From a virus: a DNA stretch of 64,000 bases. Under the pieces are notes generated by a model. That model did not search any database and was not told the DNA's origin. It saw only the letters and a list, made by a program, of their open reading frames with translations. Position numbers and translations under genes: made by a program. The stretch lies in the IMG/VR virus record IMGVR_UViG_3300047553_000733, positions 38,185-102,184 of that record. One strand, 5' to 3'. Shown here piece by piece: positions 60,261 to 62,906 of the stretch (within the stretch, counting starts at the first letter, position 1; each line of letters opens with the position of its first letter).

Positions 60261-60447
60261 GTGCTAATTTTGGCACCTTAGTGGTTTTAGAAAAATCCCA
60301 TACAGGCCGCGTGTGAGGGGGTTGTGTGAGTATTCAACTTTTGATAGTCTTATAACCCCCCTATATTGTACCATATCTTTTTATTTTGTCAAGTAGTTCA
60401 TCATTGATTTTTTCTATTATATTTATGTATGCGATAGAAAAATACTA
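60241..60447. other. Divergent control region between the leftward and rightward arms
   Basis: About 210 nt without a gene. It holds a leftward promoter at 60365-60392 with a G-run leader that can pair GGGGGTT with AACCCCC further along, and two CTCACAC direct repeats flanking AACCCCC on the minus strand. The rightward promoter at 60448-60476 begins the other arm. No conserved origin motif or gene was recognised. Confidence 0.5.
60365..60392 (-). promoter_or_regulatory. Leftward sigma70-type promoter in the control region
   Basis: On the minus strand TTGACA (60387-60392) and TACAAT (60365-60370) are 16 nt apart, with TGG before the -10 (extended -10). Its transcript would begin with a G-rich leader and run 150 nt before the next promoter and gene, so it may make a leader RNA or a small RNA. 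Confidence 0.65.
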
Positions 60448-60506: not shown

Positions 60507-60830
60507 ATGACTGCAAAGACTGTAAACTATACCCCTGAGCAAACTCTTAGCATGATCGCTGATTATCAGGCTGGCGTTAGCGTTGAGAAAATTGCTAGCG
60601 ATATGGGTAAGACTGTGCGTAGCGTGGTAGCTAAACTCTCACGGGAGAAAGTATATCAGGCTAAGGCTTATGTTAGCAAAACTGGAGAGAAGCCTATTAA
60701 GAAGGATGTTCACGCTGACTTCATTGGCTCTGCCCTAGGCTTGTCTGAGAATGATGTAGATTCTCTGACTAAGGCAAATAAAACTGCACTCGCTAAGATT
60801 GCGGATTTTATCAGGGCTGAGAAATCCTGA
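60507..60830 (+). CDS. Small DNA-binding-like protein (HTH)
   Basis: From ATG 60507, preceded by AGGAAAGGA, this gives 107 aa. Residues ~8-45 (YTPEQTLSMIADYQAGVSVE...KTVRSVVAKLSREK) fit a helix-turn-helix: a helix, a turn at AGVSVEKIASDMGKT and a recognition-like helix. This resembles small phage proteins with a 'TPEQTxxmvxxYxxGxsvexIAxxxgkSvRSvxaKLsRxgvY' pattern that I recall from T4-like and other phages. The C-terminal half (LSENDVDSLTKANKTALAKIADFI) is helical. A regulatory role for the right arm is plausible but inferred. The frame extends to 60462, but the leader upstream of 60507 is the promoter. Confidence 0.7.
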   Translation: MTAKTVNYTPEQTLSMIADYQAGVSVEKIASDMGKTVRSVVAKLSREKVYQAKAYVSKTGEKPIKKDVHADFIGSALGLSENDVDSLTKANKTALAKIADFIRAEKS

Positions 60831-61354: not shown

Positions 61355-61438
61355 CTGTTGCTTTTTTGCAACAGGGCGCCATTTTACTATAGTAAAATGG
61401 GAGGTGTCAATAGGGATAAACCCCTATGTTGTATTTTA
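61355..61438. repeat. Three-copy palindrome/promoter element, copy A
   Basis: It contains a 7-bp hairpin (61355-61361/61368-61374, T6 loop), then GGCGCC next to a perfect 22-bp palindrome (61379-61400, arms of 11), then GTGTCAATAGGG and CCCCTATGTTGTATTTTA. On the minus strand TTGACA (61405-61410) is 18 nt from TAAAAT (61381-61386) inside the palindrome. Copies B and C (61916-62012 and 62784-62872) share the frame. Confidence 0.85.
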
Positions 61439-61447
61439 GCACAAGCT

Positions 61448-61475
61448 ATTGCATGGTCGGTTTTTTGTGTATAAT
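61448..61475 (+). promoter_or_regulatory. Rightward promoter for the 47-aa gene
   Basis: TATAAT at 61470-61475 is preceded at 16 nt by ATTGCA (61448-61453). The stretch TGGTCGGTTTTTTGTG between them matches the spacer of the promoter at 62879-62906 almost exactly (TGGTCGATTTTTTGTG). Confidence 0.7.
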
Positions 61476-61499
61476 GGACACATAGACAGGAGAACAGAA

Positions 61500-61643
61500 A
61501 TGTGGCTTAGACTTCAAATAGCAATTGCAGTTGCTCGCAAACTGATGCAAGTTACGGGCATGGGTATGCATGATGCTTCCCGAATTGTAGGAAACAGATA
61601 TAATGTAGACTCCGCGCAAGTTTATCGCGCACTAACTCACTGA
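61500..61643 (+). CDS. 47-aa basic protein
   Basis: I take the ATG at 61500 (CAGGAGAACAGAA before it) rather than the frame's earlier start at 61449, which lies inside the promoter. The 47-aa product is basic and helical (WLRLQIAIAVARKLMQVTGMGMHDASRIVGNRYNVDSAQVYRAL), possibly an amphipathic helix pair like a tiny HTH. No family is recognised. The following gene starts 7 nt later. Confidence 0.6.
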   Translation: MWLRLQIAIAVARKLMQVTGMGMHDASRIVGNRYNVDSAQVYRALTH

Positions 61644-61650
61644 GGAAATT

Positions 61651-61911
61651 ATGGAATACACTTTTGTCGAACGCGAAGTTTCTGATTTGCACAAGGATGC
61701 ATATGGATTCCGTCCAAGCTATGACTTTTGGCGTGAATGGGAATTGTCGGATAATGATGGCAAGCAAGCCATTTGGGATGGCATGATTGATTCGCTTGAA
61801 TCTGATGAGGCTGATCCTGGGGATATGGATGGCGATCACGCTAGCGCATTGGCTAGCGCAGGTTGGGGTACTGATGAGGATTATGGATACGATAGCATAG
61901 ACTCATGGTAA
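61651..61911 (+). CDS. Acidic hypothetical protein
   Basis: This 86-aa protein is strongly acidic (more than 20 Asp/Glu), with an aromatic middle (SYDFWREWELSDNDG) and an Asp/Gly/Ser-rich end (GWGTDEDYGYDSIDSW). The acid composition recalls DNA-mimic proteins such as anti-restriction Ocr, but nothing specific supports that. It follows the 47-aa gene by 7 nt, so it is in the same unit, and copy B of the palindrome element lies directly after its stop. Confidence 0.6.
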   Translation: MEYTFVEREVSDLHKDAYGFRPSYDFWREWELSDNDGKQAIWDGMIDSLESDEADPGDMDGDHASALASAGWGTDEDYGYDSIDSW

Positions 61912-61915
61912 CCAC

Positions 61916-62012
61916 AATAACCCCACAATCTGTGGGGTTATTGGCGCCAAAATTATAACATATAATTTTGGCCCGTGTCAATAGGTACTTTCCCCTATGT
62001 TGTATTTTTGCA
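61916..62012. repeat. Three-copy palindrome/promoter element, copy B
   Basis: It has a 12-bp hairpin (61916-61927/61931-61942, ATC loop), GGCGCC, an 11-bp inverted repeat with 3-nt spacer (61947-61957/61961-61971), GTGTCAATAGG and CCCCTATGTTGTATTTTTGCA. On the minus strand TTGACA (61976-61981) is 18 nt from TATAAT (61952-61957). The palindrome arms differ in sequence from copies A and C yet stay complementary. Confidence 0.85.
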
Positions 62013-62031
62013 TATTAGGGTTTGTCCTAGG

Positions 62032-62059
62032 TTGACAGGTTCGCGCATACCGCTATAAT
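62032..62059 (+). promoter_or_regulatory. Consensus sigma70 promoter for the 41-aa gene (leaderless)
   Basis: TTGACA (62032-62037) and TATAAT (62054-62059) are 16 nt apart. The ATG at 62066 falls at the expected start point, 7 nt after the -10, so the mRNA may have no leader. Confidence 0.8.
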
Positions 62060-62065
62060 TGAGGC

Positions 62066-62191
62066 ATGAAAACAGAAAACTACACACAAAAACAGATTGC
62101 AGAATTTGCAGAATTTTGCAAGCGTCACGGCTTGACATTTGCAAATATGATCGAGTATAATTCGGCATTGGCTCAATATTTTTCGGAGTAA
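62066..62191 (+). CDS. 41-aa protein, possibly leaderless mRNA
   Basis: ATG 62066 to TAA 62189-62191 encodes 41 aa, with an amphipathic helical pattern (YTQKQIAEFAEFCKRHGLTFANMIEYNSALAQYFSE) and one Cys. Its ATG sits at the predicted transcription start. No family is recognised. The 157-aa HAD gene follows after 4 nt, so both probably share the transcript. Confidence 0.55.
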   Translation: MKTENYTQKQIAEFAEFCKRHGLTFANMIEYNSALAQYFSE

Positions 62192-62195
62192 TTAC

Positions 62196-62669
62196 ATGAT
62201 TTCAAGGATTGCAATATATGACATGGATGGCACAATCGTTTGTTCTCTGCATCGGTATCGCACAATTGCTGATGCCAATGGTGAGCGTATTGACCTCAAT
62301 TATTGGCGCGAAAATGAATATCGCGCGGGTTCTGATTCTCTGCTACCCCTTGCCGAAAATTACAAGCGAGACTTGGCAGATGCTAGCTGTTTTGTCGTTA
62401 TCGCTACTGCCCGCGTTATGCGTGCCCCTGATTATGCATTTGTTACTGAGAAACTAGGCGATCCTGATTATATTATTTCCCGTCCTGATGGTGAAACTAT
62501 TTCAGGCGGTACATTAAAAATTAATGGTTTGCGTAAGGTTTTCGAGATGTTGCCTAATGTAAATCGTGATAATTGCGTGTTTTACGAAGATAATGTAAGC
62601 TATCTAAAATCAGTTTGCGATTATTTCAATATTCGCGGTGTTTATATTCCAAGCAAACAGGGGCATTAA
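62196..62669 (+). CDS. HAD-superfamily phosphatase
   Basis: This 157-aa protein has the HAD motifs: IYDMDGT (nucleophile and acid Asp, residues 8 and 10), a Thr-containing strand VVIATARV, and the acidic loop YEDNVSYL near residue 128. The cap is small. It is close in size and order to the 3'-phosphatase half of polynucleotide kinase and to other phage HAD phosphatases; no kinase domain is present. The substrate is unknown, with end-repair or nucleotide cleanup possible given the phage DNA genes nearby. Confidence 0.75.
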   Translation: MISRIAIYDMDGTIVCSLHRYRTIADANGERIDLNYWRENEYRAGSDSLLPLAENYKRDLADASCFVVIATARVMRAPDYAFVTEKLGDPDYIISRPDGETISGGTLKINGLRKVFEMLPNVNRDNCVFYEDNVSYLKSVCDYFNIRGVYIPSKQGH

Positions 62670-62671
62670 TT

Positions 62672-62761
62672 ATGACTGAGGTTATTATGTGGTTTTTGGG
62701 TTTTATTATATTTTTTGCGGTTTACTTTATATTGGAATCGTGGTATATAAGCCGCGACTAA
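62672..62761 (+). CDS. 29-aa single-span membrane miniprotein
   Basis: ATG 62672 to TAA 62759-62761 encodes 29 aa, nearly all one hydrophobic span (MWFLGFIIFFAVYFIL) with a charged end (ESWYISRD). It starts 2 nt after the HAD stop, so coupled translation is plausible. There is no independent ribosome site, so a chance frame is possible. The parS sequence begins immediately after its stop. Confidence 0.5.
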   Translation: MTEVIMWFLGFIIFFAVYFILESWYISRD

Positions 62762-62777
62762 TGTTTCACGTGAAACA
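62762..62777. promoter_or_regulatory. Perfect bacterial parS (ParB-binding) sequence
   Basis: The 16-bp palindrome TGTTTCACGTGAAACA is the exact consensus of the chromosomal parS centromere site bound by ParB/Spo0J across most bacteria. It lies in the short gap after the 29-aa gene and just before copy C of the palindrome element. No second perfect copy and no ParA/ParB gene was noticed in the window. Random occurrence of a given 16-mer in 64 kb is roughly 1 in 67,000. Confidence 0.9.
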
Positions 62778-62783
62778 AGCCCA

Positions 62784-62872
62784 CTGTTGTTTTAAAACAA
62801 CAGGGGCGCCAATTATACTAGTATAATTGGGCGCGTGTCAATAGGTGTTTTCCCCTATGTTGTATTTTTGCA
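62784..62872. repeat. Three-copy palindrome/promoter element, copy C
   Basis: It has a perfect 20-bp palindrome (62784-62803), GGCGCC, a perfect 22-bp palindrome (62809-62830, arms of 11), GTGTCAATAGG and CCCCTATGTTGTATTTTTGCA. On the minus strand TTGACA (62836-62841) is 18 nt from TATAAT (62812-62817). It follows the parS site by 6 nt. Confidence 0.85.
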
Positions 62873-62878
62873 CTGGGC

Positions 62879-62906
62879 TTGTCATGGTCGATTTTTTGTG
62901 TATAAT
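62879..62906 (+). promoter_or_regulatory. sigma70-like promoter for the exonuclease gene
   Basis: TTGTCA (62879-62884) and TATAAT (62901-62906) are 16 nt apart; the spacer TGGTCGATTTTTTGTG is shared with the promoter at 61448-61475. The gene's ATG (62938) follows ~25 nt after initiation, without a strong Shine-Dalgarno. Confidence 0.78.

Follow-up and report, generated by a model that had tools for sequence, protein, structure and literature searches.

Intergenic Palindromic Elements of a T5-Like Phage Clade Read as Antisense Promoters with a Self-Complementary -10 Region

In the stretch of phage DNA analysed here (the window, 64,000 nucleotides), three related intergenic elements each read on the minus strand as TTGACA-N18-TATAAT (TAAAAT in copy 1), followed by GGCGCC and then by a hairpin. 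With a -35 TTGACA and a -10 TATAAT separated by 16–18 bp, the family has the geometry of sigma-70 promoters, and it is very probable that the elements are such promoters pointing left, in opposition to the flanking genes, all of which run rightward. The promoter was missed in the sequence-only reading that first described the elements; the palindrome of that description is, judged by its letters, a predicted -10 hexamer together with a self-complementary copy in the spacer. The most likely role, to which we give about an even chance, is cis-antisense repression or transcriptional interference of a block of genes resembling the pre-early block of T5, the block being assigned to a terminal-repeat/pre-early region by its position only.

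Layout of the Three Copies in the Window

The copies were confirmed where they had first been reported, at 61355–61438, 61916–62012, and 62784–62872, and a repeat finder groups all of them as one family. Their right-hand core, CCCCTATGTTGTATTTT, has exactly three matches in the 64 kb with up to three mismatches allowed, all of them exact, against 0.48 expected, which is far from chance. The full joined core occurs three times in the whole 102-kb record, with 0 occurrences of reversed controls. The order of parts common to all three copies is hairpin, GGCGCC, palindrome, and core; the choice between TATAAT and TAAAAT, the 0–4 bases from the -10 to GG, and the loop vary. Within GTGTCAA lies TTGACA, the -35 hexamer belonging to this leftward promoter; in palindromic copies it is always 18 bp from the -10. 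The individual features, with the basis of each assignment in brackets, are as follows.

61355–61374, minus strand: copy 1, hairpin 1, CTGTTGC-tttttt-GCAACAG, which would form the 5′ end of a leftward transcript (sequence and relatives)
61375–61380, minus strand: copy 1, GGCGCC, the expected discriminator/start region (sequence)
61379–61400, no strand: copy 1, palindrome CCATTTTACTATAGTAAAATGG, 10-bp arms (sequence)
61381–61386, minus strand: copy 1, leftward -10 TAAAAT, within the left arm (promoter scan)
61405–61410, minus strand: copy 1, leftward -35 TTGACA, spacer 18 (promoter scan)
61410–61427, no strand: copy 1, dyad ATAGGG-ataaac-CCCTAT adjoining the -35, then GTTGTATTTT (sequence)
61449–61475, plus strand: rightward gene promoter TTGCAT..TATAAT, with weak -35 and spacing (sequence)
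61915–61943, minus strand: copy 2, hairpin 1, CAATAACCCCACA-atc-TGTGGGGTTATTG (sequence)
61943–61948, minus strand: copy 2, GGCGCC (sequence)
61946–61972, no strand: copy 2, palindrome GCCAAAATTATA-aca-TATAATTTTGGC, 12-bp arms (sequence)
61952–61957, minus strand: copy 2, leftward -10 TATAAT (promoter scan)
61976–61981, minus strand: copy 2, leftward -35 TTGACA, spacer 18 (promoter scan)
61981–61998, no strand: copy 2, dyad ATAGG..CCTAT, then GTTGTATTTTTGCA (sequence)
62032–62059, plus strand: rightward gene promoter TTGACA-N16-TATAAT (promoter scan)
62784–62803, minus strand: copy 3, hairpin 1, perfect palindrome CTGTTGTTTTAAAACAACAG (sequence)
62805–62810, minus strand: copy 3, GGCGCC (sequence)
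62809–62830, no strand: copy 3, palindrome CCAATTATACTAGTATAATTGG (sequence)
62812–62817, minus strand: copy 3, leftward -10 TATAAT (promoter scan)
62836–62841, minus strand: copy 3, leftward -35 TTGACA, spacer 18 (promoter scan)
62841–62858, no strand: copy 3, dyad ATAGG..CCTAT, then GTTGTATTTTTGCA (sequence)
62879–62906, plus strand: rightward gene promoter TTGTCA-N16-TATAAT (promoter scan)

The element extends beyond these three sites: the genome of the phage has seven exact promoters of the type, four of which lie just past the window end (755, 1305, 1541, and 3197 of G000, the same sequence as L167; a pattern match at 1539 was counted as the same site as 1541). On a circular record, which gene continuity suggests, these four would share one gene cluster with the three window copies; an end repeat of the record was looked for and none was found.

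The sequence TGTTTCACGTGAAACA (window 62762–62777), which we take to be a perfect consensus parS (ParB-binding) site, adjoins copy 3 and occurs once in the genome. Its 14-bp core is also found next to an element in two related contigs, L010 and L008, and is not found in 14 other related contigs, T5, or the Vibrio T5-like phage VspSw_1.

Promoter Geometry and Strand Bias

GGCGC was used as the anchor in 20 cluster regions; these were picked for holding matches, and the weight therefore rests on the difference between the strands and on the break in the distribution rather than on the totals. Of 204 anchored antisense-strand sites, 134 show a promoter with no more than two mismatches among the 12 consensus bases (91 of the 134 are exact), three further sites have three or four mismatches, and the remainder have at least five. 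On the gene strand of the same regions, such a promoter is present at one of 236 GGCGC-anchored sites, and exact 12/12 promoters of any kind number 98 antisense vs. 8 sense. Many copies were fetched by patterns containing part of the promoter, which by itself produces the conservation of TTGACA in those sets, but neither the asymmetry of the strands nor the gap from two to five mismatches. When the core was the only query and the left side was unconstrained, 86 non-redundant copies were obtained, of which 57 have TATAAT and 14 have TAAAAT at 16–18 bp, the control for the 57 being an exact -10 match in ~0.3% of shuffled left sides.

Full-consensus TTGACA-N17-TATAAT also stands before ordinary genes of the phage (window 49739, 32066, 6060, 58137 (minus), and 60882 (plus)), and one polymerase would therefore be expected to recognise these and the antisense copies alike. 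What sets the antisense copies apart from the ordinary gene promoters is GGCGC at the start region. An array of full-consensus promoters is notable because, according to a recent paper, the full consensus is adopted by no natural Esigma70 promoter (PMC12464699).

The same perfection could serve another end, with the promoter acting as a dock or roadblock at which a tightly bound polymerase is rarely released, blocks upstream read-through, and insulates units, the RNA being irrelevant. This is the chief rival of antisense repression, although a fairly unlikely one. It would be favoured by full consensus hexamers, often with an extended -10, by the GC-rich start, and by hairpin sequences that vary between copies and hence give no common RNA product, as well as by the reported absence of the full consensus from natural Esigma70 promoters and the escape limitation of the T5 N25 promoter (PMC12464699). 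However, the consensus promoters before real genes of the same phage look functional, and a gene-strand terminator lies just upstream in only 29 of 108 copies, as called by our own heuristics, so many of the sites are not tidy unit ends.

Distribution and Genomic Setting

The phage is T5-like, with a TerL ~50% identical to those of Vibrio T5-like phages and 48% identical to that of T5, and it encodes an HK97-type protease-capsid protein. In IMG/VR, the exact core is present in 35 stretches and a shorter core in at least 119, copy counts here being counts of sequences and not of independent events. A pattern combining the promoter with GCGC is matched in 18 long metagenomic contigs, two to ten times in each and always on one strand, with 0 matches for the backwards control. 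The array is present in all 17 TerL-bearing contigs, that of the phage itself included; the other 16 TerL sequences are 63–81% identical to that of the window, and all 107 matches in the 17 contigs lie on the TerL strand, 1.3–13 kb upstream of TerL. Contig G004, with two pattern matches but neither TerL nor a paralogue of the small protein described below, was treated as unrelated. The genes of the block run opposite to the promoters, and our heuristic gene calls place co-directional genes on both sides of 104 of the 134 copies, which leaves the earlier statement that the element is found only between right-arm genes nearly right.

A search for the same pattern in T5 and VspSw_1 found none, and phage records searched by blastn gave no match. 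The exact core was also unmatched in genome_contigs, and therefore no host link could be drawn. The counterpart in T5, matched by position only, is the terminal repeat, which carries the injection stop signal as well as the pre-early genes.

A strand-specific array in one region, with hairpins near the RNA start and repeat-rich boundary copies, might also be expected if leftward short RNAs primed DNA replication or marked an origin; against this, two to ten copies are scattered over several kb between genes, and we regard such a function as highly improbable. T5 nicks carry GCGC, and an interpretation of the elements as nick sites was set aside because they sit in one block only.

The Self-Complementary -10 Region

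Arm lengths in 189 non-redundant promoters are bimodal, with 98 promoters having arms of at most 5 bp and 91 having arms of 8–12 bp; shuffled spacers reach 8-bp arms in ~0.06% of cases. The spacer is exactly 18 in all 91 palindromic copies, though the arm length and the register relative to the -10 vary (five registers in total). The 98 copies without a full palindrome keep the promoter, with a spacer mostly of 17, and include 14 near-palindromes with one or two mismatches (4% in shuffles), nine of which have a spacer of 18. Arm variants comprise TATAAT/ATTATA, TAAAAT/ATTTTA, outer A/T stretches of differing length, and CG and TA variants. Covariation beats all 500 shuffles and every slid control in two registers; as the palindrome rows were selected as palindromic, the percentage paired is circular and covariation partly so, whereas this circularity touches neither the constancy of the spacer nor the bimodality of the arm lengths.

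Selection on pairing, as originally proposed, is thus supported by sequence comparison for the palindromic class; among the relatives, the pairing is kept in about half of the copies, and the other half lack the palindrome yet keep the promoter, so that the refuting outcome named with the proposal, broken pairing in relatives, applies to that half. Two further parts of that proposal do not stand. The arms do not change almost wholly, since in one of them the complement of a -10 hexamer, either ATTATA or ATTTTA, is always present, and the selection is not independent of a fixed base sequence, as one arm corresponds to the -10, and the flank to the -35, of a consensus promoter. With an inverted copy of the -10 in the 18-bp spacer, the -10 region can, by its sequence, pair with itself.

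In 61 of the 91 palindromic copies, the loop provides an extended -10 (TGn) for the antisense strand; on the gene strand, TGn accompanies the mirror -10 in one of 73. The polarity of the structure is therefore leftward, since TGn adjoins the antisense -10 and hardly ever the mirror -10. A bidirectional promoter was rejected, as the mirror -10 has neither a -35 nor TGn on the gene strand.

Quasi-palindromes are subject to template-switch correction, and the palindrome might accordingly be unselected, with template switching in replication perfecting imperfect inverted repeats and the promoter cassette spreading by recombination. The three window copies, with nearly identical cores and different arms, would be in line with this. 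Template switching could keep the arms alike, but it would not fix the spacer length at 18 throughout the palindromic class, and it leaves unexplained both TGn in the loop on one strand only and the single orientation of 107 matches out of 107; we hold this origin to be very unlikely. Another conceivable, if unlikely, function is that of a self-folding switch, in which the inverted copy would let supercoiling or single-strandedness fold the -10 away, with the array timing the shut-off of the first genes.

The Hairpin and the Dyad

The hairpin that had been noted before each copy is found at the same place across the relatives; of the 91 palindromic copies, 69 have a perfect stem of at least 7 bp no farther than 55 nt from GCGC, against 1.8% in shuffles. 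It usually begins a few bases from GCGCC, and its sequence varies from copy to copy; an outer stem (CCC/GGG, CCG/CGG, CCCG/CGGG) is present in window copy 3 and in the matching sites of L010 and L008. Rfam covariance models gave no match at the three window copies. An intrinsic terminator was rejected as the main identity, as hairpin 1 is followed by at least four T in the next 7 nt leftward in only 29% of the palindromic copies, although a minority of the hairpins may terminate. An antisense-strand terminator within 80 nt was called by our own detector in 13 of 108 copies, and with the 5′ hairpin so rarely a leftward terminator, antisense transcription could run on.

Two or three adjacent inverted repeats, with arms that are variable and mostly paired, would also be compatible with a structural element, in which the hairpins work as RNA in rightward read-through (as a 3′-end stabiliser or in processing) or as a DNA cruciform, the promoter being secondary. 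This is quite unlikely in our estimation: half of the copies lack a palindrome and retain TTGACA-N17-TATAAT-GGCGC, a spacer of exactly 18 in 91 of 91 copies is unexpected for an RNA hairpin, and no U-run was found trailing the palindrome. G-U bias, a mark of an RNA hairpin, was checked in the imperfect palindromes, with few cases and a mixed outcome.

The dyad next to the -35, mostly TAGG..CCTA with variable inner arms, is present in 77% of the copies of the TA-TTGACA class, a frequency that in the retrieved sets is partly by construction. Lying against the -35, it is plausible as a putative operator.

Small DNA-Binding Paralogues

Candidate regulators of the array, judged from sequence and location, are small DNA-binding proteins, one of which is encoded in the window.

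60507–60830, plus strand: small protein with two predicted helix-turn-helix units, PHROG 'DNA binding'/'D5-like'

There are four paralogues in this genome (window 60507–60830 and L167 912–1238, 1856–2164, and 3318–3641 (minus)) and two to five in each related genome, where they mostly lie within the array or next to it. They are present in all 17 TerL-bearing contigs and were not found in T5, VspSw_1, or the unrelated contig G004. The AlphaFold model of the small protein contains two helix-turn-helix units; a Foldseek search with this model gave no significant match, nor did a search for the protein in phage records. Its nearest named relatives are the GcrA proteins, although the similarity is weak (PDB profile match 5yiu, E 0.012), and membership in GcrA was rejected, with scores of 15.6–17.6 bits for Pfam PF07750, below the gathering score of 26.9.

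Proposed Role in Antisense Interference

In the mechanism that we favour, host RNA polymerase would start at the leftward promoter, with the transcription start expected at GGCGCC and the hairpin at the 5′ end of the RNA, and would run backwards into the gene before it, entering at the 3′ end; the expression of that gene would be lowered by collision, by antisense RNA, or by both. We infer that the promoters fire and that, as an array, they would damp or shut off the gene block together, the timing and control possibly being exerted via the small DNA-binding paralogues. Interference or antisense repression is judged most likely on the strength of a synthetic part with this layout, in which the 3′ end of a gene is followed by a terminator and then an antisense promoter. 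Repression by that part scales with the strength of the promoter and is lost if the terminator halts antisense transcription as well (PMC4731013). In the phages, the promoters likewise stand at the 3′ end of a gene and point into it (104 of 134 copies, by heuristic gene calls), and a strong immediate antisense terminator is uncommon (the 13 of 108 copies given above). The palindromic core of about half the copies suggests a built-in brake on the facing genes. Several points count against this mechanism: it leaves the palindromic -10 and the hairpin abutting the start unexplained, Rho may act on the untranslated antisense RNA, and fully consensus promoters can release polymerase slowly.

Comparison with Known Systems

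Taken singly, extended -10 elements, palindromes in promoters, and antisense promoters all have precedents, and natural antisense promoters are usually regarded as scattered and weak. The lambda antisense promoters pAQ and pRE, which need the activator CII and have poor hexamers, are similar to the elements as phage promoters opposed to early genes, whereas here the hexamers are consensus and the copies many. The rrn P1 promoters have TATAAT and then a GCGCC discriminator, as does the element, which differs from them in being without rRNA.

The layout, as read from sequence, resembles that of the parts of Brophy and Voigt 2016, in which a constitutive promoter stands behind a gene, at its 3′ end, and faces back into it, the repression in those parts being proportional to promoter strength (PMC4731013). 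Those parts are engineered, whereas the elements are natural, are repeated 2–10 times per gene block, and have a palindromic -10 and a 5′ hairpin. The T5 promoter classes differ mainly by the discriminator, which is ATATT in early promoters, and the switch between T5 gene classes is stated to be unknown (PMC7472727). The elements would share with T5 early promoters the use of host sigma-70 RNA polymerase and a class set by the discriminator, but they carry GGCGC instead of ATATT and face genes instead of driving them, and T5 itself lacks the pattern. The bidirectional promoters of Warman et al. (PMC12825309) also have a symmetrical -10 region; here, unlike there, the genes have separate promoters and the mirror -10 is without a -35 or TGn.

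In the open-access literature, no account was found of near-consensus antisense promoters, self-complementary in the -10, that form an ordered array throughout a clade. A whole phage clade keeps such a one-direction array of near-perfect antisense promoters in the gaps of one gene block, which allows the idea of antisense interference as a designed tier of gene control in phages to be put to the test, and the many natural palindromic -10 variants can be used to ask whether DNA folding gates a promoter.

The Block Border and the Terminase Junction

The right border of the block contains ~1 kb without convincing genes (L167 2165–3190), with promoters and a strong terminator. A noncoding RNA or a counterpart of the T5 injection stop signal is possible in this stretch, for which Rfam gave no credible match. 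A second promoter class near the border, at L167 1541 and 3197 as well as in border copies elsewhere, has CACTG or GGTTTTGCACTG before the -10, often with TTTAGGGTCAG upstream.

At the divergent junction with the terminase genes, the relatives have 28 core copies between a leftward and a rightward gene; among those listed, the copies are without GGCGCC, palindrome, or hairpin of the element type. The window has a comparison site of this kind.

60365–60392, minus strand: leftward promoter TTGACA-N16-TACAAT before the terminase operon, at the divergent junction, without GGCGCC or palindrome

Both in the window (60290–60400) and at the junction in the relatives, a conserved leader lies between the terminase promoter and TerS. 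On the terminase strand of the relatives it reads GGGCGGTTATTAGACTAT ... GCCCCCCGACACGGCC, and it is possibly a structured late leader RNA.
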